The notes beneath the pieces were generated by a model, which was given only the letters and a program-made list of their open reading frames with translations, made no database searches and was not told the origin of the DNA. A stretch of 47,818 nt of DNA from Verrucomicrobiales bacterium (GTDB lineage Bacteria; Verrucomicrobiota; Verrucomicrobiia; Verrucomicrobiales; DEV007), in the NCBI GenBank assembly GCA_014239335.1, contig JAAZZC010000119.1, forward strand, positions 1 through 47,818, written 5' to 3'. Numbering within the stretch: the first letter of the stretch is position 1; every line of letters begins with the position of its first letter. Both the position numbers and the translations under genes were made by a program. Positions 11,246 to 36,765 of the stretch are shown here, piece after piece.

Positions 11246-12544
11246 TTATGAGAACAGCTGCATGACAGGATCACCATGGTTTGCCACGGTGAATGGACGA
11301 GCATTTTTCGTGAATAGTCGCTGATCTAGAGGTAATCCACATCCATAAGCAATCGTTGCGTTAAAATCAGCTATTGTAACAGGGTCGTCCACAGGCTCAG
11401 CACCTTTGTCATCAGTTTTACCATGTATGTATCCACCTTTAACACCCCCACCAGCGAGAAGCGCTGAGAAGGCTTTAGGATAATGGTCCCGACCTGCGTT
11501 CTGGTTTATTTTTGGAGTTCTTCCAAACTCAGTAGTGAGAACAACAAGTGTTTCCTGAAGCATACCACTGGTATGAAGATCATCCAACAAAGCACTGAGT
11601 GCCTGATCAAGTATGGCCGTATTTGATTGGACTCTCTGGAAATTATCTTGGTGAGTATCCCAACCTCCAAGCTGAACTTCAACGGATCGCACCCCAGATT
11701 CACTCAAGCGGCGAGCCAAAAGACACCCTTGTCCAAAAGCATGATCACCATAACGTTCTCTGAGCGGTTGGCTTTCCTGAGATATATCAAAAACCTTAAG
11801 ATCAGAACTTTTCATGAGGGTAACAGCTTCTTCATATATGGCAGTATATGCATTGGCATTCTTATCCTTATACTTGGCATGGAATTTTTGATCGATGCTC
11901 TCAGAGAGTTTCCGTCTCCGCATGAAATCAGTTTCAGAAATTCCTGTGAAATGCTTACTGTTCTGAAGTCCCGCCTCTGGTTTCCCGATGATTAACGGCT
12001 GACAATTGATTCCAAAAAAACCAGCACCAGCCTCTTTACTGCCACTGGCAATCGATACAAATCCAGGCAACTGTTGATTTATTCTATCCTCATATTTTAA
12101 TAACCATGCCCCCATATGAGGATGTTGAACTGTTCCTCGTTTCGCATAATTAGTCTTCATGAGGTAACGAGCCTGCTCATGAGCACCTGTTTTTGAATGC
12201 AATGAATTCACAACCGCAACCTTATCCATGTGCTTTGCAATGTTCGGCAAGTACTCACTGACTCGCACTCCATCTGCACTCGTTTTAATTGAAGAAAGGT
12301 TACCTTTAATCTCAGATGGCGCTTCTGGCTTCGGGTCAAAAGTATCGAGGTGCGACATTCCTCCAGCCATGTATAGATAAATAACTTTTTTTGCTGGGTT
12401 TTTTCGGAATGGAATTTTCCGATCCTCGCCCCCTGCCGCCATTAAATCTTGAGACAGAAAATTAACACCAAGATAAGCTTTAGCTGCTCCAGCCATGAAA
12501 GCCCTGCGATCTGGTGAATGTGATAGTTCTTGCGAGAAGTTCAT
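11246..12544 (-). CDS. DUF1501 family protein
   Basis: This 432-residue protein belongs to DUF1501, a family distantly related to sulfatases and alkaline phosphatases. Visible motifs are VIYLYMAGGMSHLDTFDPKP near the N-terminus, GCLLARRLSESGVRSVEVQ, GGWDTHQDNF, VLTTEFGRTPKIN and GRDHYPKAFSALLAGGGVKGG. These hold the aspartate and histidine residues usual for metal binding. The start region (SPDRRAFMAGAAKAYLG) contains a twin-arginine-like RRAF motif, so Tat export is likely. It is the first gene of a pair with the DUF1549/DUF1553 gene. The 163 bases upstream are AT-rich with no promoter I could define. Function unknown. Confidence 0.86.
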   Translation of the reverse strand: MNFSQELSHSPDRRAFMAGAAKAYLGVNFLSQDLMAAGGEDRKIPFRKNPAKKVIYLYMAGGMSHLDTFDPKPEAPSEIKGNLSSIKTSADGVRVSEYLPNIAKHMDKVAVVNSLHSKTGAHEQARYLMKTNYAKRGTVQHPHMGAWLLKYEDRINQQLPGFVSIASGSKEAGAGFFGINCQPLIIGKPEAGLQNSKHFTGISETDFMRRRKLSESIDQKFHAKYKDKNANAYTAIYEEAVTLMKSSDLKVFDISQESQPLRERYGDHAFGQGCLLARRLSESGVRSVEVQLGGWDTHQDNFQRVQSNTAILDQALSALLDDLHTSGMLQETLVVLTTEFGRTPKINQNAGRDHYPKAFSALLAGGGVKGGYIHGKTDDKGAEPVDDPVTIADFNATIAYGCGLPLDQRLFTKNARPFTVANHGDPVMQLFS

Positions 12545-12707: not shown

Positions 12708-13808
12708 TTAATAATTCCAATGCTCTAAAGCAAAGCGCCATCGTTCCATTAATTTCTTCTTAATGCTATCTGATAATTGATGCGTATTCTTTTGATATTT
12801 TTTCTGATCTTCAATATATTGCCCAATCTTAACCATTGATTCTTTATTTACTTCGATCCCGAGGCTTCGATAAATATCATTAACGACTGACATCGGATTG
12901 GAATCAAGGTCCTCGAATCGAACTTCATGGTAATCTTGATTGGGAATTTTCTGACGCTCCTTCAAATGGGCTTTCATGACTCTCTCATAGAAAGCAAAAG
13001 TCATTTCCTCATAATTAATAGATGCACTTCGATGCCATGAAAATGATGGCGTCATACGACCCCATAATTTCATCATCGAAGGAAACACTTCATAGGGGTT
13101 GCGAATGATATGAACAAACTTAGCATTCGGAAATATCTCTTTAAGTAAAGTCATCCTGCTTGTGCAGGCAGGATTCTTATAAAGCATAGTCTTTCCATCG
13201 TGAGCATAAGTCATTTTTTTTGTTAAATAAAGATATGCTGATTCAAGTGATTTCCTTTCTTCATCACTCATGCATTCCATTAAAACAGAAGAGTTAAAAT
13301 ACCCTTCAATATTTCTGGGAAAATAAAGGCATTTTAAGAAAGAAACAGACCCCAATGCAGCCAATGCGAATTCCTCTTCTTGAGGAGTATCCGGACCTAT
13401 AGCAACTTTATCCATACCGCGATTCTTTGGCATCATAATTTTCATCAATGCACGAGCAGGCCGTAACTTACCAAGGCAATCCAAAGGCATAAGAGACCTT
13501 GAAAAAGAAATGAAAGCAAATTGATCATCCTGACTCAATAAATTGTGTAAGTGTGTCGTCCCGCTACGCCAATGACCAATTATGAATATTGGTCCATCTT
13601 TGACCTCTTGTAAGTTTATCGCATTCTTATGTTTTATTTTTTCAAGAAATACAGTCGGAACTCGAAAGGTTACAGCCATAAGAGAAAGCAATCTCGATGG
13701 AAGAGAATAGAGAGTATAGGGCCAATTATTGAAGTAGAGTTTCCAAAATTGGATGAACCCACATCCTCCGATCGGATGTAAAAGATCTGGAAATTTTTTC
13801 TTTGCCAT
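12708..13808 (-). CDS. Sulfotransferase family protein coupled to the PKS-NRPS
   Basis: A 366-residue PAPS-dependent sulfotransferase of the bacterial Sulfotransferase_3 type. The 5'-phosphosulfate loop is PIFIIGHWRSGTTHLHNLL at about residues 70-88, and the 3'-phosphate site is FVHIIRNPYEVFPSMMKLW. A conserved late stretch VRFEDLDSNP is also present. Its ATG lies 3 bases after the stop of the PKS-NRPS gene, so the two are probably translationally coupled. That spacing is the best argument that it tailors the synthase product, by putting sulfate on a hydroxyl. It may instead act on a lipid or glycan. There is no thioesterase or decarboxylase domain next to it, so the CurM-type terminal-alkene mechanism is not supported. 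Confidence 0.85.
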   Translation of the reverse strand: MAKKKFPDLLHPIGGCGFIQFWKLYFNNWPYTLYSLPSRLLSLMAVTFRVPTVFLEKIKHKNAINLQEVKDGPIFIIGHWRSGTTHLHNLLSQDDQFAFISFSRSLMPLDCLGKLRPARALMKIMMPKNRGMDKVAIGPDTPQEEEFALAALGSVSFLKCLYFPRNIEGYFNSSVLMECMSDEERKSLESAYLYLTKKMTYAHDGKTMLYKNPACTSRMTLLKEIFPNAKFVHIIRNPYEVFPSMMKLWGRMTPSFSWHRSASINYEEMTFAFYERVMKAHLKERQKIPNQDYHEVRFEDLDSNPMSVVNDIYRSLGIEVNKESMVKIGQYIEDQKKYQKNTHQLSDSIKKKLMERWRFALEHWNY

Positions 13809-13811
13809 AAG

Positions 13812-16800
13812 CTAACCATTTATGTTGGTTGACTCAGAACTGGACTGCCCTCGAAATTTCTGAACCGCTTCATCAGTAACAAAATAACTCTGCATTTGCA
13901 AACGAGCTGCACCAAGGCCCAAATCATTAATGAATTCATAATGAGATAACGCTTCAGTTCCGGTGAATTCACCCAGAGTAACACCCACTCCGGAATCCAT
14001 TTCAGTGAAAATACTAGCCAAAATACAACCGGTCATTTCTCTGGAATCTCTTACTATAATAGATTGTAGTTTTTCAGGATTAATAATTTCAAGCATCTCT
14101 TCAGCAACTCTTGGAAGATAAATAACCTCTTCAATTTGTTGCCCCAATCGCAATTGGCCTCCTGAAGTAAATATTAAGTCCCCATCCCTTTCTGCCCTCT
14201 TTGCCGCATCAATGAGACTGAATGAACTAGGAAATGAATAATCTACAATCATGGTCCCCGGTCGAACCTTTTCAATATTAATTATATTAGGAACATTTGA
14301 AGCCGCTATTATCAGCTCGCTTTCATAAACTTTATCAGGGAGTTCACTACGACAAGAGCATATATCAATTTCTCCAACAAAGCCACTCGCCAAGAGTCTA
14401 TCCTGCAATTCTTCGAGTCGATCTTCTTGTCGATAAATATCTGACATAATAATACCACGAGGATGCGGCAAAACATCCAATAACAGGCCAAGGGTCCCCT
14501 TTCCAATTGATCCAAGACCAATAAAAGACACCTTAAGGTCAGACATATCACGCCCCGAATTGGCAAGGATACCTTCTACAGATTTCACGATTGTTGCGCA
14601 CCGCGTTGCATTACCTGTAGTAATGATTGGTAAGTTCACCTCTTCGTCATTTTCCCTCATCCAATTAATCACATCCAATCCATCATTAGTCACTAAAGGA
14701 AGCACCCCTGTAAGTGATGCTTTCCGCGCGCCTAGTTTTGCAGATAAACGCAATCCATCCATAATAATTGATCTTATTGGATTAGAATCATCATACAGAT
14801 CAACTTCAAAAATCGGCAACATTATAAGACCTATAGTCCCCCACTGGGTCCTATATAAATTAGTTAATCGAGCCTTATTTCCAAACCATTTATTGAGTAA
14901 TTCGGATTTGCCTAAACCTGTCACTTCAATAAACGATTGAGGTATGTAAGAAAGAGCAACTGCATCAATATTTGGCAAAGAGTCTAGTTTATCATTGTCA
15001 GTGAATTGGAAAGAAAGGTATTCGGTATCAACTTCTTCCCCACTAATTAATGGCTCAGAAACATTCTCCATAGATGCAGGCGAATCTACAAATCCTGCGA
15101 ACTTTTCAATAGTTGGATATCTGAAAAAAGCCTCTAAAGGGATATTCTTTTCCAGAGCATTCGAAACTCTAGTGACAATTTTAACTGCCATTAAAGAATC
15201 CCCTCCCATGTCAAAAAAATTATACTTGATGCTTACCTTAGGAATATCAAAAGCATCAGAAAATATCTCAGCAAGTTTAGTCTCGGTAATGGTTGATGGG
15301 GAAATGAAATTATGCTCCAATTCCATCATACTGTATTCAGGAGATGGAAGTGCTTTCCGGTCAATTTTCTGGTTAGGTGTCAGAGGCAACGCTTCCAGAT
15401 TAACAAAATATGCAGGCACCATCGCATTCGGCAATCGATCACGCAAATGCTCCTTAATACCAGTTAATAACTCATTTGTCAGTTCAGATTCTATAACAAA
15501 ATAAGCCACAAGAGCTTCTCCACTTGGCAGATCATCACGCTTGATAACCACTGCAGAACTAACTGCCTCATAACTCATTATCGCAAATTCAATCTCACCA
15601 AGCTCAATACGAAAGCCCCTCAGTTTAGTCTGAAAATCAATTCGCCCTAAACATTCCAATGTCCCATCAGGACGCCATCTACCCAAGTCGCCGGTTTTAT
15701 AAAGTCTTTGATGGCCCTGACCAGGAATATCAACTTCAATGAAGGATTCATCCGTTAATTCTTCTTTCCCTCGATAACCTCTGGCAAGACCTGCTCCACC
15801 TATGCAAATCTCCCCAACAAAGGATATCGGTTGAATATTATTGTTATCACCAAGTATATAAATCTTTGTATTGGATATGGGTTTCCCAATACTCAATTTC
15901 TCTTCACTTGAGAGAACTTTAGTACAAGTAGACCAGACCGTTGTCTCTGTCGGCCCATATAGGTTCCATACTTCATCAGCGCTATTAACAAGAAAATCGG
16001 CAAGGTCTCTAGGCATCGATTCACCACCACATAAAATCTTGAGTCCGTTACGCCCTTCCCACCCACTCTCCATGAGAATTCTCCAAGTAGTCGGAGTCGC
16101 CTGCATAATTGTTACTGCATGATCGTTGAGCAATCTCGAAATCCGTCTCCCATCTCTAGCATCCTCTTTAGTCGCAACAACAACCTGAGCCCCTGTAATT
16201 AGCGGTAAAAAAATCTCAAGTATTGAAATATCAAAAGAAAGAGTCGTTAGGGCCAAGAGCCGATCCAATCTAGTAATTCCTGGATTTTGCCGCATTGACG
16301 TCAAAAAATTAACTGCTGCAGAATGGGAGATTTCGACGCCTTTCGGTTCACCAGTCGATCCTGAAGTATATATAACGTAGGCTAAGTTATCAGCATTAAA
16401 TAGAGGACGATCGGGTAACTCTATAATATCAGCACATTCCTCTACTCTAAAAATACCAGTGAAATCCGGAGGCGCTAAATGATGCGTACCTTCCGTGACA
16501 AAGAGTAATGAAGAACCCGAATCCTTCAACATTTTCTGAATCCTATGACAAGGATAGTCAGGGTCAATCGGGACATAATGCGCACCAGACTTCAGAACCC
16601 CCAACATCGCGGCAATCATCAGAGCATTTCTTTCAACAATCAGAGCAACAGAGTCATCTGGCCCAATATTCTGATCTATCAGAGTTCCTGCCACATTATT
16701 AGCTAATCTTTCAAGTTCCTGATAAGTGACTTTTTGTTCTCCAAAACGAACAGCAACTGTGCTCGGTGTTTTTAATGCCTGCTCTTCAACGAGATGATGA

Positions 16801-19800
16801 ATGCCTTTATCTTTCGGATAATCAGCATCGGTTGAATTCCATGAAGAAATGATCAGTTCCGACTCTTCTTTACCCAACAATTCTATCTCAGAAATCCTAA
16901 TATCTGGATCCCGGGTTATATGTTCCAGTAAAAGGGAAAAAGTTTCACTTAGCTTTTGAATCGTTTCTGGCTTAAAAAGATCTCGATTGTATTGCCAGCA
17001 ACCGAAAATTTGACCTCCGCTCTCCTCAACTACAAGAGTAATTTCAAATTGTGCCTGACGTAAATTAAGATCAATGGTTTCAACCGTCATGTCGCCAACC
17101 GAGAATTGATGTCCTCCCTTCCCGATCAGGAAAACAGCAATGCCCTGCTCGTCAATGCCAGGCACACGCTCCATGGCAAATGAGACTTGAAAAAGCGGTG
17201 ATCTTGCCGGATCACGCGGCATTTTTAAATCATTAATAATCCGAGAGAATGGGTAATCCTGATGTTCAATGGCTCCATTCACGGATGCTGATGTTTGATT
17301 CAAAAATTCAATGAAACTAGGGTCATCATGCGTACTACTACGCAAAGGAACCATATTCACAAAATATCCAAGCATATCACCGATCTCCTTTTGATTTCGT
17401 CCCGCCATCGGACTTCCAATCACAATATCATCCTGATCACAATAACGATGAAATAAAGCATTGTAGGCAGTAAGCATCGTCGAATAAAGTGTCGTGCTTT
17501 GGCTTTGCGCTAACTCTAGAACCTTTGAAGCTAAGTTATCCTCAAGGATGAAACTGAGTCTTCCTCCGTTAAATGTTTGAACGGCAGGACGAGGGTAGTC
17601 AGTTGGAAGGTCAAGAGAACCAGACACACCGCTAAGTGATGAACCCCAATACTCAGATGCTCGTATTTTGTATGGGCCTGCAAGATTATGCTGTTGCCAA
17701 TTAACGTAATCCTGATAGCTGTATTCGATCGGATTAAGATCAAGATTTTTCCCCGACTTAATCGAAAAATAACTTTCGATTAAGTCGTTCATTAACAAAG
17801 AAACGGACCATGCATCAGAAATGATGTGGTGCATTGCCAGTAAAACGAAATGTGAACCTTGATCATTCCGAAAAAGTTCCAACCTGATCACGGGACCTTT
17901 TTCTAAATCGAAAGGCAATTCGGCATGTTCTTCAATGAGTTCTTTGATTTGCTCCTCATTCATACTAGATGCATCATGTTCCCGAAAATCGATCGTCTTC
18001 TTAGGTTCAACTCGTTGAATAAGCTCTCCATTGACTTGATGAAAAGTTGCACTCAGCATCGGATGACGTTCAAAGAGAGCCCTGAAAGCAGATTCCATTG
18101 CTTCAATATCAACAAGAGGAGTAAGCTTAGAACTAAATACCAAATTATATGCGGCACTTTCCGGTGAAAGCTGATACAAAAACCACAAAGCTTTCTGTCC
18201 CTCAGAGAGGGGAAATTCCATCGATTCTTCGCCCGCTCTTTCGAATGAAGCTATATCACTTGATGACAGATTTCCAGCCGAGGATATCTCAGAAGCATTT
18301 TCATCTACGGCAAGAATTTGCTCTAGAAGGCTAGCCGCTAGCTCCTTTATGTTCGGACCATTCAGAACACTCCCCATCGGTAGATTAATTCCAAGCTCAG
18401 ACTCCATTCTATTCATTAGCTCAATTGCCATAAGGGAGTCTAATCCAATATTGGTAAGCGCTGTGTCACGGTCAATTTTTGCAACTTTAGTACCAAATAC
18501 ACTCGCTACTTGGTCAGTAATAAAATCTTCGAGTATTTTCAGTCTTTCTTCACCTTGAGCAGCCAAGACCTTGGGACGAACAGATCCTCCCGATCCTCGC
18601 ACCGATAGTCTCTGGACTACTTTACTATATAATGGAGCAGTTGAAAGCGCAGGGCTCAACTTAACCAGTTGAGCCCAATCAACTACAGAGGCAACGACCT
18701 GAGCATTCGACTTTGGAAGAAAAAGTGATATCACGTGCTGAGTATCCAACATCCTATATGGCTTCATCCCGAGTTTGTTTAGATAAGTCGCAGTTTTCTG
18801 GTTACGCTCAACAAATCCAGCCTCAATCAATGCTCCCCAGTTAATTGTTAATGCCGAAAGGCCTCTGGAATGACGATAGTGCGACAAGGCATCTAAAAAT
18901 GCATTTCCTGCATTATAATTGGCCTGCTTAACTGCACCAATGACCGTCGAGAAAGAAGAAAATTGGATGAAATGGTCTAAATCAATATTCTGAGTCGCCC
19001 GATGTAAATTCCAGGCCCCTAACATCTTTGGGTAAAGAACCTTATTAAAACATTCCTCATTCATATCAATCATGAACTGGTCATCAATGACCATTGCCCC
19101 ATGAATTATGCCTTTTAAAGGTGGAAGCTCAGAACCTATTTTGACCATGATCTTTTCCACTTCTTGGAGCGAAGTCACGTCAGCTCTGAAGTCTACAATC
19201 TCTTTTCCTTCGGATCTTAAATACTCAATATCTTTAATAATAGATGCATCTCGAGCGCCGCTCCGGCTAACGAGGATCAGGTGATAGGCTCCGTTGCGAA
19301 GCATCCATTTTGCCAGTTCGAAACCGAACCCACTCATGCCTCCAGTGATCAGATAGGTTGCATCCGATTTGAATAAGTGACCTTCCTCAGTGCATGGAGC
19401 AATAGGAATCGAATCGCAATCAAAGCTAAGTACATTCTTACCAATGTGCTTCCCTTGGGCCATGTAACGAAATGCTTCTGCCGCTTCTGTTATAGGAAAA
19501 ACAGTATGGTCTAAGGGAGAATATTCGCCAGAATCAAAGCTCTTCGCTAATTTAGCAAATATTTCTGCAACATAATCCGGCCTATCTTGTAAATGTTGTG
19601 CAAGATCAACAACGAAATAAGAAATATTGTTACGGAGTTGCTGGAGCCCAATCTTTGAATCGTTATAAACATCTATTTTACCAATTTCAATAAAGCGACC
19701 GAAAGGACTCAATACTGAAAATGACTTTGAAATAAAATCGCCGGCCAGCGAATTAAGAACACAATCAACACCTTCACCATCTGTGATATTCATGATCTCA

Positions 19801-20471
19801 TCAGCAAAAGATAGCGTCCGTGAATTCATTACATGGTGAGCTCCAAGTTTGAGAAGCAGATCACGCTTTTCAGGAGTTCCAGCAGTTGCGAAAATTTCTA
19901 GTCCTAATCCACGAGCAATTTGAATTGCAGCCATTCCCACTCCGCCCGTACCAGCATGAATAAGAACACTTTCTTTTTTTCTCATCCTCGCTAGTTCATG
20001 CAAACTGTAATAAGCAGTCAAAAAGACAGTCGGCAATGTCGCCGCTTGTTCAAAAGTCATTGAATTAGATTTTTTAAAAATCATCTTTTCACTGACCGTG
20101 ACAAATGAACGAAAACAATAAGGAGCCATGCCGACGACCTCATCACCAATCGCAAAATCTTTAACTTTTTTTCCCACACTGACAACGGTTCCTGAGAAAT
20201 CATCGCCAAACCATTTCAAATCAATCGGATTGCCTGGATACATTCCCAGAGCCTTCATCACATCTCGAAAATTAATCCCTCCCGCCTTAATTTGAACTTC
20301 AACTTGATCTGGATCAGGCGAGCATCTGATCGTCTCATTGAGAGACAAATTAGTCAGTACTCCAGGTGAACTAATCTCTAACTTGAAAGGAATTATCGAC
20401 TCCTCTGACAAGACAGCTTCGGCTAAACGGTCAGATTGCTTTTCAGCTTTAAGAGGGTATAACCGATTCAC
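13812..20471 (-). CDS. PKS-NRPS hybrid, C-terminal half: ER-KR-ACP-C-A(Gly)-PCP-acyl-ACP-reductase-like
   Basis: 2219 residues from a GTG start. Domains: enoyl reductase 30-350 (VLIHAGTGGVGMAAIQIA); ketoreductase 365-560 (Tyr519 in QANYNAGNAFLDAL, IDD at 462-464 as in B-type KRs); ACP with Ser679 (GLDSL); condensation 752-1190 (HHIISDAWS, 881-889); adenylation 1225-1710 (YTSGSTGEPKG, Lys1702); PCP with Ser1759 (GGDSL); and a reductase-like domain 1820-2205. The A-domain pocket is D1414, I1415, L1418, Q1457, L1480, G1482, L1504, V1512, W1513, K1702, matching the glycine code with Val for Ile. The last domain has TTGNATRCAT, VSFIGLGSIGKG and Cys2149 in REMTGCILASIF, resembling fatty acyl-ACP reductase. 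The start lies seven codons after the stop of the preceding gene, in the same frame, in the middle of a linker that is continuous in related synthases. The chain is probably released reductively. No phosphopantetheinyl transferase is in the window. Confidence 0.9.
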   Translation of the reverse strand: MNRLYPLKAEKQSDRLAEAVLSEESIIPFKLEISSPGVLTNLSLNETIRCSPDPDQVEVQIKAGGINFRDVMKALGMYPGNPIDLKWFGDDFSGTVVSVGKKVKDFAIGDEVVGMAPYCFRSFVTVSEKMIFKKSNSMTFEQAATLPTVFLTAYYSLHELARMRKKESVLIHAGTGGVGMAAIQIARGLGLEIFATAGTPEKRDLLLKLGAHHVMNSRTLSFADEIMNITDGEGVDCVLNSLAGDFISKSFSVLSPFGRFIEIGKIDVYNDSKIGLQQLRNNISYFVVDLAQHLQDRPDYVAEIFAKLAKSFDSGEYSPLDHTVFPITEAAEAFRYMAQGKHIGKNVLSFDCDSIPIAPCTEEGHLFKSDATYLITGGMSGFGFELAKWMLRNGAYHLILVSRSGARDASIIKDIEYLRSEGKEIVDFRADVTSLQEVEKIMVKIGSELPPLKGIIHGAMVIDDQFMIDMNEECFNKVLYPKMLGAWNLHRATQNIDLDHFIQFSSFSTVIGAVKQANYNAGNAFLDALSHYRHSRGLSALTINWGALIEAGFVERNQKTATYLNKLGMKPYRMLDTQHVISLFLPKSNAQVVASVVDWAQLVKLSPALSTAPLYSKVVQRLSVRGSGGSVRPKVLAAQGEERLKILEDFITDQVASVFGTKVAKIDRDTALTNIGLDSLMAIELMNRMESELGINLPMGSVLNGPNIKELAASLLEQILAVDENASEISSAGNLSSSDIASFERAGEESMEFPLSEGQKALWFLYQLSPESAAYNLVFSSKLTPLVDIEAMESAFRALFERHPMLSATFHQVNGELIQRVEPKKTIDFREHDASSMNEEQIKELIEEHAELPFDLEKGPVIRLELFRNDQGSHFVLLAMHHIISDAWSVSLLMNDLIESYFSIKSGKNLDLNPIEYSYQDYVNWQQHNLAGPYKIRASEYWGSSLSGVSGSLDLPTDYPRPAVQTFNGGRLSFILEDNLASKVLELAQSQSTTLYSTMLTAYNALFHRYCDQDDIVIGSPMAGRNQKEIGDMLGYFVNMVPLRSSTHDDPSFIEFLNQTSASVNGAIEHQDYPFSRIINDLKMPRDPARSPLFQVSFAMERVPGIDEQGIAVFLIGKGGHQFSVGDMTVETIDLNLRQAQFEITLVVEESGGQIFGCWQYNRDLFKPETIQKLSETFSLLLEHITRDPDIRISEIELLGKEESELIISSWNSTDADYPKDKGIHHLVEEQALKTPSTVAVRFGEQKVTYQELERLANNVAGTLIDQNIGPDDSVALIVERNALMIAAMLGVLKSGAHYVPIDPDYPCHRIQKMLKDSGSSLLFVTEGTHHLAPPDFTGIFRVEECADIIELPDRPLFNADNLAYVIYTSGSTGEPKGVEISHSAAVNFLTSMRQNPGITRLDRLLALTTLSFDISILEIFLPLITGAQVVVATKEDARDGRRISRLLNDHAVTIMQATPTTWRILMESGWEGRNGLKILCGGESMPRDLADFLVNSADEVWNLYGPTETTVWSTCTKVLSSEEKLSIGKPISNTKIYILGDNNNIQPISFVGEICIGGAGLARGYRGKEELTDESFIEVDIPGQGHQRLYKTGDLGRWRPDGTLECLGRIDFQTKLRGFRIELGEIEFAIMSYEAVSSAVVIKRDDLPSGEALVAYFVIESELTNELLTGIKEHLRDRLPNAMVPAYFVNLEALPLTPNQKIDRKALPSPEYSMMELEHNFISPSTITETKLAEIFSDAFDIPKVSIKYNFFDMGGDSLMAVKIVTRVSNALEKNIPLEAFFRYPTIEKFAGFVDSPASMENVSEPLISGEEVDTEYLSFQFTDNDKLDSLPNIDAVALSYIPQSFIEVTGLGKSELLNKWFGNKARLTNLYRTQWGTIGLIMLPIFEVDLYDDSNPIRSIIMDGLRLSAKLGARKASLTGVLPLVTNDGLDVINWMRENDEEVNLPIITTGNATRCATIVKSVEGILANSGRDMSDLKVSFIGLGSIGKGTLGLLLDVLPHPRGIIMSDIYRQEDRLEELQDRLLASGFVGEIDICSCRSELPDKVYESELIIAASNVPNIINIEKVRPGTMIVDYSFPSSFSLIDAAKRAERDGDLIFTSGGQLRLGQQIEEVIYLPRVAEEMLEIINPEKLQSIIVRDSREMTGCILASIFTEMDSGVGVTLGEFTGTEALSHYEFINDLGLGAARLQMQSYFVTDEAVQKFRGQSSSESTNING

Positions 20472-20492
20472 ATATCTGACACCATCCCTTTA
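20472..20492 (-). other. In-frame TAA and short linker separating the two synthase genes
   Basis: On the minus strand the PKS frame runs …GAA ATT GCT TAA AGG GAT GGT GTC AGA TAT and continues into the GTG start of the next gene. No frame change is needed. Translated through the stop it reads ENEIA-*-RDGVRYVNRL. Highly reducing PKSs normally have an unbroken EIALRxGxRYVxRL-like linker here, between the pseudo-KR and ER domains. One base (TTA Leu to TAA) would explain the interruption. AGGG lies 14 bases before the GTG, a poor distance for a ribosome binding site. Confidence 0.85.
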
Positions 20493-23400
20493 AGCAATTT
20501 CATTTTCTTGGTCAGATAGAAGGAATTCTTCAAAAATATCATATGATTCAGATCCGCGACTTTGTTCATCTAAATCAATATGTTTCCAATGAAAATCAGG
20601 ATACTCACCTCTAGCTACACGAATGATACCCACTACAGGGGACATTGCGATCCCATTAAGCATATCACCTCCTTTAACGTGCACAGTGCCTCGGGTTAAG
20701 ATCAAAACTTTCGGGTTTAACTCGAAGTCTTTAGACGATAATGTTTTGACGAGCTCTAGCAAATGCATAGATCCAGTTCTCTGAGCACCTATTAAATCAG
20801 CTTCTGAAGAACTCCCATCTAATGGCCCTGCCTCAATACCAAATGCATGAACAATTGCATCCACTTGAGGCATGTTAGCAATTACCGTACCTATTTCCTG
20901 ATCAGGTAATAACCTAACAACTTGATTGGATTCATCTTTAAAGCGTTCAGACAATTCTTTAAAGAAAGAATCATCCTCAGAGAAAATAATTACGGCCCCT
21001 TTGTTGTTTAAATCTCCAAGATCCCCCAAGCCGTTCTCTTCTTTGTTGAGATCACCCTCTTCAATTAGTGATGAAGAGCCCCTATGAGCCATGAAGGCAG
21101 TCTGACCAGACTCATCTGGGTCAGGTGTATTGACAAATGATACTACGCCCTCGTATCCACAACTTAATAATAAATCTTTCCACTCTGGACAATTCAATAA
21201 TGCCGAATTGGGCCTCAGATCAGTGTCAGTATATTGCCACCAACCTTTCAACAATCCGAAAATAAGATCCAATGCACTACGAGAACGAGTTACTTCCAGA
21301 AAAATGAGCAAGCCATCATCTGCCAGGCAGCACTTTAATTGTTCGAGAGTATTTTTAAGATCAGAAGTGGCATGAATTACATTAGTTGCTAGAACCAAAT
21401 CAAAAGATTCAGGAACAATTCCCTGATCTGATGGAGATTTCTCTATATCAAAAAGACAAAATTCAACTGACGCATTATTAGTAAATGCCTTCTTCGCCTC
21501 AGCAATGAAGGCCTGACCAGTATCAGAAAAGGTATAATCGAATTTATTGGGAGATAATTTTTCAAGAACGCTCCGGGTCAATGATCCTGTCCCAGCTCCA
21601 ACTTCAAGAATTCTGACTGCACGGTCCTCCGAAACGCCCTCTATGGCTTTTTGGACAGCAGCTGAAATCATCTCGTTATTTGCAGGAAAATCAGCTCCAT
21701 TAACATAAAAAGATTCCAGCACTTCAGAGGATCCTTTTGGGAAAAGAACCTCAAGAGAATAAGCCTCTCCTGAAAGCACTTCAGTGAGCCTAGGCCAAAC
21801 TAGTTGATAAAGATCAAGATCCGCTCCTTGGCTCGGGTACTTCATCCTAAGATGATCCAATTCCTGCGTTACATCAATACCGCGGACTTCACGTATTATT
21901 CTCCATTCCCCTTGACCTAATTCTTCTAAGGGTCCCTCAACTGATAAAGCCTTCAGTTGAGCCATGACTAAGCGTTCATGTTCGAGAGAAATACCTAACT
22001 CTTCTATAATCTTGCTCGTTGTATAAATAGAGCCACAATCAGGATTCCAGCCTAGCTGCATTAATGAACTCTCAAAACAGTGGCGTGCCAAGCTGTCAAC
22101 TTCTTGAATGAAATCCTTATAGTAAATTGCTAGATCATACCTTTCATACCTTTCATTTTTTCCAGCATTAACTTCCTCCAGAATCTGGTCAAAATTTGAA
22201 AATGCTATTTTCCCTTCCACTCGACTGCCCCTTAGCCGCTTAGGTTCCCAAGAAAATTCATAGAAAGAATTATTAATTGATTCTATTTCTTCATCTTTCT
22301 GATCAATTCTTTCAACACAAAAACCCAAAACATCGGCAACTCTTTGTCCTTCCCCGTTCATAACAATAATGTCAGCTATGACACTTTCACCATCATCAAA
22401 TGTGACTGTGGCATGTGCCCACAACTTATCTGGAAGAGAATCCTTATACAGGTGCACTCTGCGAATAGAAGAAGGCAGGTAAAAATTCTGACTAGGCCTT
22501 GATCCTTCTGGGATAACTTGTGCCCCTTTGAGTGCATGAAAACATGCATCGAGAACGGCAGGATGAAAATGATAATTTGAAAGTGTATTGACTATTGCGG
22601 GGGGGACTTGAATCTCTGCAACGGATTCATTGGGCTTACTCCAAACATTAAGGAGCTGACGAAAGTTGGGACCAAACTGATAACCTGCCTTATCATATTC
22701 TTTATAATAATCCTCATGAGTGGAATGCTTTTCCATACGGGATTGGATAGAATTAAGAGATTCATCACAGGAATCTGGTTCTGGATTTGCCCGTCGAATT
22801 AATCCCTGAGCATTAAGTTCCCAAGTCTTACTCTCATCAGTGGAAGAATATACACGAAATGACTTTTGCGATTCAGTATATGCTACACGAACAGTAGGAA
22901 CATTCTTATCTGAAATAAAGAGCGCCTTCTGTGTCTTTATTGATTCAACAGCATAAGACTCTTCGGGGAACAAGTTTCTGGCAACTGCAAGACCTATCTC
23001 TGCATAGCCTGCTGCTGGGAAAATAATACTATCCCAAAAACAATGGTCTTGGAGATAATCGTGCTCTCTTGGGTCAAGGCGAAACTCCCAACAAGTCTCG
23101 GGGGATCTCTGTCTTAACCCAAGTAGAGGATGATCCATAGCTTGTAGCCGATGCCTGAAGGATTCGTCACATTCAATCCAGAATCTTTCATGATTCCACG
23201 CATGCCTTGGAACATTCACTACTTTACCCGACCCCTGATTAATAGCAGCCCAATCAACTTGTACTCCCTCTATATGAAGTCTCGCTAAATTCTCAAGAAT
23301 AGCTTCCAATTCTCTTTCTTTGCGCCTCAGAGAACAAAGGACTGAACATTTTTTCCCGAGGGCTCCGACGGAATCAGCAATTGGAGCAGCAAGTGCAGGA

Positions 23401-25835
23401 TGAGGACCTAATTCAAGAAATAGCTCAGAACCATCATTGGATAATGACTCAATGGCTGAGGAGAACAGAACGGGTTCCCTGACATTTCGCCACCAATAAT
23501 TATTATCTAAATCGCCACCCTCGAAGAGTTCGCCAGTAACAGTTGAGTAAAATGGAATTTCGGAACTCTTTGCAGAAATTGTCTCTAACGCATTAATTAG
23601 ATCATCTTTAATAGGATCCATTTGATGAGTATGGAACGCGTAATCAATACGAAGCCACCGCACAAAGGCCCCTTCCTTTTCAATACTTTTAACAATGCCT
23701 TTCAATGCCTGAGTGTCTCCTGCAAGGGTGACCATTGTAGGCCCATTGATAACAGCTACCTGAACCTCATCTTCTTGACCTTTGATTACCCTTTCCGCCT
23801 CAGCTCTGGAAAGTCCCACAACTGCCATCTTACCCTTTCCGCCTGTCTTATTTTGCAAATGACTCCGATGAAAAATAACCTTAATAGCATCTTCAAGACT
23901 GTATACTCCTGCAACGTATGCTGCAGCAACCTCACCAACGCTATGCCCAACAACTTTCTTAGGCAAGACTCCCCATGTTTTCCACAATTCGGCAAGAGCA
24001 ACTTGCAGAGCAAAAATAGCAGGCTGCGCAATATCTGTCCGATCGATCCTTGATAACTCTTCATTAGAATTCATTTCTTCGACCAAGGACCACCCAGTCA
24101 ACGGCTCTAATATGGAATTAATTTTTTCTATTGTTCCTCGAAAGACAGGCTCATTCCGGAAAAGTTCTTGCCCCATACCCCACCACTGTGCTCCCTGCCC
24201 AGTAAATACAAATACTGGATCAGCATTAGTAACAGAACGTTTGCCAATAATACATCCTGGAGATTCTATATGATTTAAAATCCATGATTTTAAAGTCGAT
24301 CTTATTGATCCATTATCATCACCAATGACAACCATTCTCTCATCAAGGCTCTGAAGATTTAACCCGACCGAAGTGCAAACTTCACTAATATGATCAGTAT
24401 CGTTTTTAAGAAATTCGCAGTACGATTTAGCTGCACACTCAAGACCCGCTTCACTGTTTCCACTGACTGGCAACAAAAATGGGCGGCCAATCAAGTTTCG
24501 ATAAGATTCGTCACTTATTAGGCAAGGTTCATTTTTTACTGACTCAAGAACAACATGGGCATTGGTTCCGCCAAACCCAAAAGAATTCACAGCGCTAACA
24601 GGAAGAAAATCGCCCATTGATGGCATGGGCATATTTTCCCGAGGAACCCTTAACTTCAACTCTTTGAAGGGAATGTTAGGGTTGGGCGTTTCGTAATTAA
24701 GGTTTTTAGGAATTCGCCGATTATGCAAAACTAATGCTGCCTTTATCAGGCCCGCAATCCCAGATCCAGATTCCAAATGACCTATATTGGATTTTACAGA
24801 TCCTATGATGCACTGTTCAGATTCTGATCTTCCCTCACAAAGAACTTCTCCAAGAGCCCGCGTCTCAATGGGATCACCAACAGGCGTGCCCGTGCCATGA
24901 GCCTCCATGTAACCTACTCTGCTAGGGTCAATACCGGCTTGTTGGTAAGCCTGACGCAACATAGCCGCTTGTGAATCTCTACCAGGAACAGTCATCGAAG
25001 ATGTATTACCGTCCTGATTTACTACCGTAGCCTTGATCGTAGCATATATACGATCGCCGTCCCTATGCGCGCGAGCAAGAGGCTTAATAAGAATCATTCC
25101 TGCACCTTCACCTCTCACATATCCGTTAGCTCGGGCATCAAAAGCAAAACATTGACCACTCGGCGACAGCATCGACGCTTTGGAAAAACCAATTGAACTA
25201 TCAGGCATCAACAATGCATTAACTCCACCAGCAAACGCAGCATCACATTCCCCACTCCAAATACTCTTACAAGCAAGATTAACCGCTACGAGAGCAGATG
25301 AACATGCCGTATCAATAGAGATGGAGGGTCCTTTTAAATCATAAAGATAACTGATACGGTTCGAAGCGATTGATAGTGTGCTGCCAGAATTTGTATGAAC
25401 ATCAATGTCTGACTCCCCCATCATTTGGATCGATCCATACTCATTAGATGATATACCTACATAGACACCAGTGGCTGAACCTCTCCAATTAACAGGCTTT
25501 TCCCCCGCATCTTCGAAGGCTTCCCATGTTAGCTCAAGCAACCAGCGTTGTTGCGGATCCATGCGCTGAGCTTCTCTGGGGGAAATGCCAAAAAAAGATG
25601 CGTCAAATTTGTCCACATCGTCAACGAAACCTCCCCACTTAGTTATCATCTTGATAGGGATTGAACTATCAGGATGATAGTAACGGTCTGCATTCCATCG
25701 ATCATCGGGAACTTCCCGAATTCCCGATTTTCCTTCTATGAGAAGATCCCAGAACAAATCCGGGCTATTAGCTCTCCCCGGAAACCGGCATCCTATTCCA
25801 ACTATCGCGAGAGGCTCTTGCTTTGATTCTGGCAT
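20490..25835 (-). CDS. Highly reducing type I PKS, N-terminal half: KS-AT-DH-C-methyltransferase-pseudoKR
   Basis: 1781 residues. Ketosynthase 1-430 has all three active-site residues (Cys178 in DTACSSAL, His313 in EAHGTGT, His353 in NIGHLE). Acyltransferase 540-850 has GHSVGE (Ser632) and YAFH at 732-735, a mixed form between the malonyl HAFH and methylmalonyl YASH signatures. Dehydratase 900-1190 has His931 in DHCFWDSIIFP, where the usual HxxxG glycine is Asp, and Asp1096 in LDACFHAL. The SAM methyltransferase (about 1300-1560) carries ILEVGAGTGSLT near 1410. A pseudo-KR structural region follows from about 1600. The ORF stops at TAA within the pseudo-KR/ER linker, and the next ORF resumes in the same frame. 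It carries no ACP, ER or active KR, so it must work with the next gene. The 164 bases upstream are AT-rich and probably hold a promoter, which I could not define. Confidence 0.92.
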   Translation of the reverse strand: MPESKQEPLAIVGIGCRFPGRANSPDLFWDLLIEGKSGIREVPDDRWNADRYYHPDSSIPIKMITKWGGFVDDVDKFDASFFGISPREAQRMDPQQRWLLELTWEAFEDAGEKPVNWRGSATGVYVGISSNEYGSIQMMGESDIDVHTNSGSTLSIASNRISYLYDLKGPSISIDTACSSALVAVNLACKSIWSGECDAAFAGGVNALLMPDSSIGFSKASMLSPSGQCFAFDARANGYVRGEGAGMILIKPLARAHRDGDRIYATIKATVVNQDGNTSSMTVPGRDSQAAMLRQAYQQAGIDPSRVGYMEAHGTGTPVGDPIETRALGEVLCEGRSESEQCIIGSVKSNIGHLESGSGIAGLIKAALVLHNRRIPKNLNYETPNPNIPFKELKLRVPRENMPMPSMGDFLPVSAVNSFGFGGTNAHVVLESVKNEPCLISDESYRNLIGRPFLLPVSGNSEAGLECAAKSYCEFLKNDTDHISEVCTSVGLNLQSLDERMVVIGDDNGSIRSTLKSWILNHIESPGCIIGKRSVTNADPVFVFTGQGAQWWGMGQELFRNEPVFRGTIEKINSILEPLTGWSLVEEMNSNEELSRIDRTDIAQPAIFALQVALAELWKTWGVLPKKVVGHSVGEVAAAYVAGVYSLEDAIKVIFHRSHLQNKTGGKGKMAVVGLSRAEAERVIKGQEDEVQVAVINGPTMVTLAGDTQALKGIVKSIEKEGAFVRWLRIDYAFHTHQMDPIKDDLINALETISAKSSEIPFYSTVTGELFEGGDLDNNYWWRNVREPVLFSSAIESLSNDGSELFLELGPHPALAAPIADSVGALGKKCSVLCSLRRKERELEAILENLARLHIEGVQVDWAAINQGSGKVVNVPRHAWNHERFWIECDESFRHRLQAMDHPLLGLRQRSPETCWEFRLDPREHDYLQDHCFWDSIIFPAAGYAEIGLAVARNLFPEESYAVESIKTQKALFISDKNVPTVRVAYTESQKSFRVYSSTDESKTWELNAQGLIRRANPEPDSCDESLNSIQSRMEKHSTHEDYYKEYDKAGYQFGPNFRQLLNVWSKPNESVAEIQVPPAIVNTLSNYHFHPAVLDACFHALKGAQVIPEGSRPSQNFYLPSSIRRVHLYKDSLPDKLWAHATVTFDDGESVIADIIVMNGEGQRVADVLGFCVERIDQKDEEIESINNSFYEFSWEPKRLRGSRVEGKIAFSNFDQILEEVNAGKNERYERYDLAIYYKDFIQEVDSLARHCFESSLMQLGWNPDCGSIYTTSKIIEELGISLEHERLVMAQLKALSVEGPLEELGQGEWRIIREVRGIDVTQELDHLRMKYPSQGADLDLYQLVWPRLTEVLSGEAYSLEVLFPKGSSEVLESFYVNGADFPANNEMISAAVQKAIEGVSEDRAVRILEVGAGTGSLTRSVLEKLSPNKFDYTFSDTGQAFIAEAKKAFTNNASVEFCLFDIEKSPSDQGIVPESFDLVLATNVIHATSDLKNTLEQLKCCLADDGLLIFLEVTRSRSALDLIFGLLKGWWQYTDTDLRPNSALLNCPEWKDLLLSCGYEGVVSFVNTPDPDESGQTAFMAHRGSSSLIEEGDLNKEENGLGDLGDLNNKGAVIIFSEDDSFFKELSERFKDESNQVVRLLPDQEIGTVIANMPQVDAIVHAFGIEAGPLDGSSSEADLIGAQRTGSMHLLELVKTLSSKDFELNPKVLILTRGTVHVKGGDMLNGIAMSPVVGIIRVARGEYPDFHWKHIDLDEQSRGSESYDIFEEFLLSDQENEIA

Positions 25836-35430: not shown

Positions 35431-36765
35431 CTACTTTTCTGCAAAGGGTTGATCAGGCTGCTCTAGATCCCTTATCTCGGCATTAAGCCTTTCGATCTCC
35501 AGTATCAATTTCTTTAACTGCGAATCCGATAAATCCAGCTTTTCACGCATCATTAAAGAATTAGATTTCTCCTGCTCCAGCATCTCATTAGCTTCTTTTA
35601 AATCATTTTCGACAATTTGAATTGCCGTCATATAATTATTGAGTGCTTTTTTAGTAGCCGCTTCAGCCGCTGACACTGCTTTACTTAATTCACTTTTCTC
35701 TTTATCTAAAGATGTAACCTTTTGAGTCAGAGATTCATTGTTTTTATCGGTTAGTAAGATTTGAGCCTGAGCCTGTTTGTTTTTCTCTCCGACATTAGCA
35801 ATTTCAGATTTTAATTCCTGAACCTCTTTCATATTCAAAGCTTTTGATTTCTCATAATCATCTTTAATCTTATCCCGCGCTTTGATTAAGAGTCCCACTT
35901 CTTTAACTTTACCGAGAAATGCCTCATTAGCCTTTTGAATTTTAATTCTCGCAACTTCTTTAGCATTCAAAGACGCCTTCTTGTTTGCATCCCGCTCACT
36001 AATGAGTGCTTTCTCTAGATCAGAAATCTTTTCTTCCTTATCAACCAGGTCTTTATCAGCTAAAGAGATTTTCTTGTTAGCTGATTCAAGGTTACCTTTG
36101 ACTGATGCAAGTTCATTTGCTCTAACAAACATCCAGATTATTGCAGCGACTAATAAAATAGAAAAAACAATGGGAACGAGATCTATTTTTTTTTCTCTAG
36201 AGCTGGACTCTTCTGGATAATATTCACTCACTGAATCAATTATTGATTCATCTTCAATTAGAGCAGCCTCATTATTTGATAGCTCTATTTTAACAAATTT
36301 TGATTCGGCTACCGCTGCCGGCGTAATCCATATCGTAAAACATTTTGAGGTTAAGCTGATCAAATTATCTCTGCCGAGTCGAATCGATGCTTTATCCTCA
36401 TCAGTTTGGCTTTCATCAAATGCTTCGATCGGCAAAGTTGGGATTTCTTCATCCTGTTCTTCTGAAATTTCAGTCCAAACACTAAAAGCCTTAGATGGTG
36501 GCAATGAAATAAATTCAGCTTCAGAGATACAATCATCGTTGCCTCGGGACTCTACTGAACTTGAAAAAACTTCATCTAAAAATTGTAAGTCCTTGCATTT
36601 TTCAATTGATCTAACCCATACAGTGAATGCTTCTGAACGATCCAGACTAATGAGAAGCTTTTCACTTTTGGAGCGTTCGTTCCATATCCTAGCAAACCAT
36701 CCCCCTTCGGGACGGCTAATTGCTGTCGGGTTCTTTTCTATATTTTCGCCTACTGATCGTGCCAT
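35431..36765 (-). CDS. Membrane-anchored coiled-coil protein with three N-terminal ISL…FxVW repeats
   Basis: 444 residues with no family I recognise. The N-terminal ~190 residues are acidic and hold three related segments: KLLISLDRSEAFTVWV (36-51), EFISLPPSKAFSVWTE (84-99) and NLISLTSKCFTIWITP (134-149), spaced by about 49 residues. One transmembrane helix follows (about 194-214, LVPIVFSILLVAAIIWMFV). From about 218 to the end the protein is a long charged coiled coil rich in Lys, Glu and Ala. The layout suggests the repeats lie in the cytoplasm and the coil in the periplasm, or the reverse. It is a single gene, divergent from pabA. A role in envelope structure or a stalk-like tether is only a guess. 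Confidence 0.7.
   Translation of the reverse strand: MARSVGENIEKNPTAISRPEGGWFARIWNERSKSEKLLISLDRSEAFTVWVRSIEKCKDLQFLDEVFSSSVESRGNDDCISEAEFISLPPSKAFSVWTEISEEQDEEIPTLPIEAFDESQTDEDKASIRLGRDNLISLTSKCFTIWITPAAVAESKFVKIELSNNEAALIEDESIIDSVSEYYPEESSSREKKIDLVPIVFSILLVAAIIWMFVRANELASVKGNLESANKKISLADKDLVDKEEKISDLEKALISERDANKKASLNAKEVARIKIQKANEAFLGKVKEVGLLIKARDKIKDDYEKSKALNMKEVQELKSEIANVGEKNKQAQAQILLTDKNNESLTQKVTSLDKEKSELSKAVSAAEAATKKALNNYMTAIQIVENDLKEANEMLEQEKSNSLMMREKLDLSDSQLKKLILEIERLNAEIRDLEQPDQPFAEK

Follow-up and report, generated by a model that had tools for sequence, protein, structure and literature searches.

The question raised by this locus is whether a PKS-NRPS hybrid is encoded by two adjacent genes or by one gene broken at a single in-frame stop codon. 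The 47,818-nucleotide stretch of DNA analyzed here, termed the window, corresponds to contig C42 in a marine Verrucomicrobiales metagenome-assembled genome (MAG) of 2.89 Mb, which is distributed over 293 contigs with an estimated completeness of 59%. The close relatives named below are likewise Verrucomicrobiales MAGs.

Layout and domain architecture of the synthase

The features of the locus are listed in the direction of transcription.

20490-25835, (-) strand: ORF1, 1781 amino acids, with KS-AT-DH-cMT and most of the structural ψKR, ending at the TAA of 20490-20492 (assigned from the ORF call, domain matches, and active-site motifs)
20490-20492, (-) strand: private in-frame TAA, at a position occupied by Tyr or Phe in 26 of 29 orthologues
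20472-20489, (-) strand: RDGVRY, six codons from the stop to the GTG, kept in the congeners and, from the alignment with mycocerosic acid synthase (MAS), probably continuing the last strand of the structural ψKR
20469-20471, (-) strand: GTG, the would-be start of ORF2, an in-gene Val codon in the congeners
13812-20471, (-) strand: ORF2, 2219 amino acids, with ER-KR-ACP-C-A-PCP-TR
13845-15023, (-) strand: AAR/PigE-type thioester reductase-like domain at the C terminus of ORF2 (PDB code 9e4s, E 3.9e-63; PDB code 9e4x, E 6.5e-63; NCBIfam PigE, E 8e-8; AcACP_reductase, weak)
12708-13808, (-) strand: sulfotransferase-family gene directly downstream of ORF2, syntenic in the congeners and in genomes G035 and G036

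The ORF coordinates confirm the arrangement described in the initial annotation, with the two synthase ORFs in one frame separated by the TAA and exactly six codons. The joined length (1781 + 1 + 6 + 2219) is 4007 positions and equals the open frame of the congener G045 (4007 amino acids). The gene is located in the middle of its contig, and at the stop itself nothing else points to misassembly. ORF1 and ORF2 were searched as separate queries throughout.

Pfam assigns KS, AT, DH, and C-methyltransferase domains to ORF1, which ends in a divergent ψKR seen as a weak match, and ER, KR, ACP, C, A, and PCP domains to ORF2, and the order is KS-AT-DH-MT-ψKR before the stop and ER-KR-ACP-C-A-PCP-TR after it. 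The domain set of a highly reducing PKS-NRPS (HR-PKS-NRPS) is thus complete across both halves, being held in a single frame in 32 relatives and broken by the stop in the window. The catalytic motifs are present in the KS (DTACS and its His motifs), AT (GHSVG), DH (His), MT (SAM motif), KR (Y..N), and carrier domains (GLDSL/GGDSL), as well as in the C domain, where the motif is a variant (HHIISDAW), and the A domain (A3 motif).

MAS (PDB codes 5bp4, 9d2y, and 9d2z) is a fully reducing iterative PKS with the same ψKR-ER-KR order. The alignment of the intact UWMA-0292 orthologue with the solved structures is unbroken through the stop position, the match of the intact congener protein to MAS having an E value of ~1e-115. 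MAS differs from the window synthase in that it lacks an NRPS half and a C-terminal reductase and has Trp where the stop lies. Homology to solved ER domains starts at about residue 27 of ORF2, ~30 residues past the stop. From the MAS alignment and general knowledge of PKS structures, we infer that the stop position belongs to the last strand of the structural ψKR subdomain, which would place the break within a conserved strand rather than between domains.

The single-frame form in orthologues

When the ER-KR-ACP portion of ORF2 is searched against the order, the enzyme appears as a single frame of 3991-4127 amino acids in 32 genomes of the family at an identity of at least 57%, which shows that the common frame of the two halves is no accident; the shorter frames, where checkable, run off the contig ends. 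With ORF1 as the query, no stop occurs inside an orthologous match in the 75 family genomes searched. The single ancestral HR-PKS-NRPS gene proposed in the initial annotation is therefore supported by the comparison of orthologous loci, which yields the one-gene form; far from all relatives carrying two genes, none of the orthologues examined is split at this site. The congeners DT_117, UWMA-0292, and SP164 have the same gene order as the window, and the ψKR/ER linker is conserved across the stop as originally described, with RDGVRY retained in the congeners. No second intact copy of the synthase was found in the source MAG, which is 59% complete.

The residue at the stop position in 29 orthologues is Phe in 14 (one of them assigned by eye over a shift of one codon), Tyr in 12, and His, Leu, and Ile in one each, and all three congeners have Tyr in both the protein and the DNA alignments. 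Leu is usual at this position in modular PKSs; it is not the rule in this family. The single TTA to TAA change first suggested as the origin of the stop is not upheld, the position being aromatic and not Leu.

An in-frame TAA is also present inside the ER-KR-ACP match of a distant paralogous PKS from another genus of the family (G055:C154:52134-54269).

Age and origin of the stop

Comparison of the window with DT_117 gives dN/dS values of 0.142 for ORF1 and 0.112 for ORF2, and the neighboring genes lie at 0.04-0.15 with the exception of the gene at 35431-36765 (0.36). No indel is present across ORF1 or ORF2 relative to DT_117 or UWMA-0292, and no further in-frame stop occurs across the 4007 joined positions. 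Columns invariant in all other orthologues were scored across ORF1 and residues 1-480 of ORF2, and unique changes at them number three in the window and likewise three in each of the three congeners. The dN/dS values show purifying selection of equal strength on both halves, and this result together with the absence of indels and of excess changes at invariant columns indicates that maintenance of the gene lasted until very recently or continues. Because the stop is private, the relatives are intact, and both halves are constrained, the interruption is either very recent or a consensus error, and we hold with high confidence that the locus contains a private single-site interruption, very recent or artefactual, of an otherwise continuous HR-PKS-NRPS gene. 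The finding is an ordinary one, a private stop in a single-gene HR-PKS-NRPS.

The stop is located inside a tract (~21695 to 20330) with mostly 93-98% identity to DT_117. A recombination breakpoint exactly at the stop was considered and rejected, as the DT_117-like tract runs past the stop and ends near 20330. Just after the GTG, at 20455-20471, six differences from DT_117 fall within 15 nt, forming the densest cluster in a tract otherwise 96% identical, and some of the alleles in this cluster are common to SP164. The cluster suggests local mosaic ancestry or else strain mixing or assembly mosaicism, and the stop itself is not explained by it.

Private stops were surveyed by comparing ~450 kb of the source MAG with ~1.6 Mb of UWMA-0292. 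Four interior stops were found among 148 non-overlapping orthologous genes of the source MAG, one of them lying upstream of a start codon; the remaining three are the PKS TAA, a TAA on contig C31, and a probable TAG on contig C8. The C31 stop (12217-12219) is private and in frame; the gene it interrupts encodes 374 amino acids, has no Pfam match, and is intact in seven congeners. The probable private TAG on C8 (19452-19454) lies in a very long repeat protein for which the compared relative is only 72% identical. In the reverse direction, 147 UWMA-0292 genes contain no real private stop, the three candidates being upstream of the start or antisense, and no frameshift was detected in either direction of the comparison. 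Private stops unaccompanied by frameshifts are slightly more in keeping with consensus error or strain mixing than with natural pseudogenes, the excess of 3 of 148 over 0 of 147 being small and a weak basis for preferring error to mutation.

As a matter of judgement and not of measurement, we put the chance that the stop is a consensus or strain-mosaic artefact of metagenome assembly a little above even, and a very recent natural nonsense allele, judged in the same way, is a real possibility at somewhat less than even chances. If the stop is real, translation would stop within the final strand of the structural ψKR, and the product would be without the ER, KR, carrier proteins, and NRPS half. 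The interrupted synthase would then be expected to have lost its function and the pathway would be off in this strain, barring a ribosomal restart at the GTG; this would amount to a very recent loss of a metabolite kept under strong selection in the rest of the family.

Such a restart could also underlie a two-protein enzyme, in which termination at the TAA is coupled to re-initiation 18 nt further downstream, at the GTG, and the two proteins reassemble. The short same-frame spacing, the GTG at hand, and the purifying selection on both halves are in keeping with this arrangement. The sole SD-like motif begins 19 nt before the GTG, and since hardly any of the 21 other ORFs inspected in the window has an SD motif ahead of its start, a weak motif is no bar to restart and a missing ribosome-binding site says little. 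However, none of the orthologues examined is split, the GTG is simply a Val codon that is conserved, and the break appears to fall within a conserved strand. Split orthologues and either diverged ends or docking extensions would mark an evolved split PKS; here the ends are not diverged and ORF2 has no docking-type N-terminal extension. Nothing suggests restart as an evolved mechanism. Termination and re-initiation followed by reassembly is accordingly rated as very unlikely, and the same low rating is given to a synthase made as two proteins through restart inside the last ψKR strand, with halves assembling without docking domains.

The undamaged coding frame past the stop would equally be seen if programmed readthrough of the TAA, or its decoding as an amino acid, yielded the full-length protein. 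However, TAA terminates 14 of the 21 other window ORFs inspected and is the main stop codon in the window, so that recoding was rejected as excluded in practice, and the sense codon in the congeners means that there is no selected readthrough site. The stop is not shared by relatives, and the scanned contigs of the source genome, a small part of the whole, contain no suppressor tRNA. Readthrough or recoding is thus barely credible. The initial annotation had considered the split to be recent or bypassed, and only its recency is retained, the stop being private, TAA a normal stop, and the context ordinary. An in-frame stop mid-gene could also signify an old pseudogene or a decaying cluster, but the low dN/dS and the invariant columns free of excess changes largely refute this explanation, and the absence of additional stops and indels from the 4007 positions and the presence of the catalytic motifs also stand against it; its probability is negligible.

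The M. tuberculosis pks15/1 locus is the textbook megasynthase gene split by a small lineage-specific change. The private interruption described here resembles it in that relatives have one ORF and two ORFs result from a small lineage-specific change, and differs in that it consists of a single stop in one MAG. The congener comparison shows that the apparent split is not an evolved one, and it does not look like a new mode of enzyme building. Caution is warranted, as a single private stop in a MAG gives a megasynthase the appearance of a gene pair.

Related hybrid synthases and the C-terminal reductase

The fungal-type HR-PKS-NRPS enzymes (such as PsoA, PDB code 9x29; LovB, PDB code 7cpx, for the PKS half) share the arrangement of a single KS-AT-DH-MT-KR-ACP module with one C-A-PCP module after it in one chain, with sequence matches for KS-AT-DH and for KR-ACP. 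In contrast with these hybrids, the window enzyme is bacterial, has an ER in the same chain, and ends in an AAR/PigE-type release domain.

The C-terminal 420 residues of the synthase are without Pfam annotation and match PDB codes 9e4s and 9e4x (E ~1e-63), with weak matches to PigE and cyanobacterial acyl-ACP reductase. These two entries are the nearest solved relatives of the reductase domain and are named only as adenylation-domain proteins; a literature search on 9e4s returned no paper. TamH has an AAR-related thioester-reductase domain (PMC9594044), and PigE is described as reducing a thioester (PMC8341465). The ORF2 C-terminal domain matches PigE (E 8e-8), and AAR weakly, within this group of thioester reductases akin to cyanobacterial acyl-ACP reductase, and differs from TamH and PigE in its fusion to the terminus of a PKS-NRPS. 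Orthologues down to ~50% identity align to the end of ORF2 and therefore share the reductase domain. The AAR/PigE-like domain suggests that product release is reductive, probably as an aldehyde. The sulfotransferase-family gene at 12708-13808 probably belongs to the same pathway as the synthase.

Elsewhere in the window, the gene at 35431-36765 on the (-) strand, which has no Pfam match, is fast-evolving with dN/dS values of 0.32-0.36, and its identity is 86% to UWMA-0292 and only ~60% to DT_117 and SP164.
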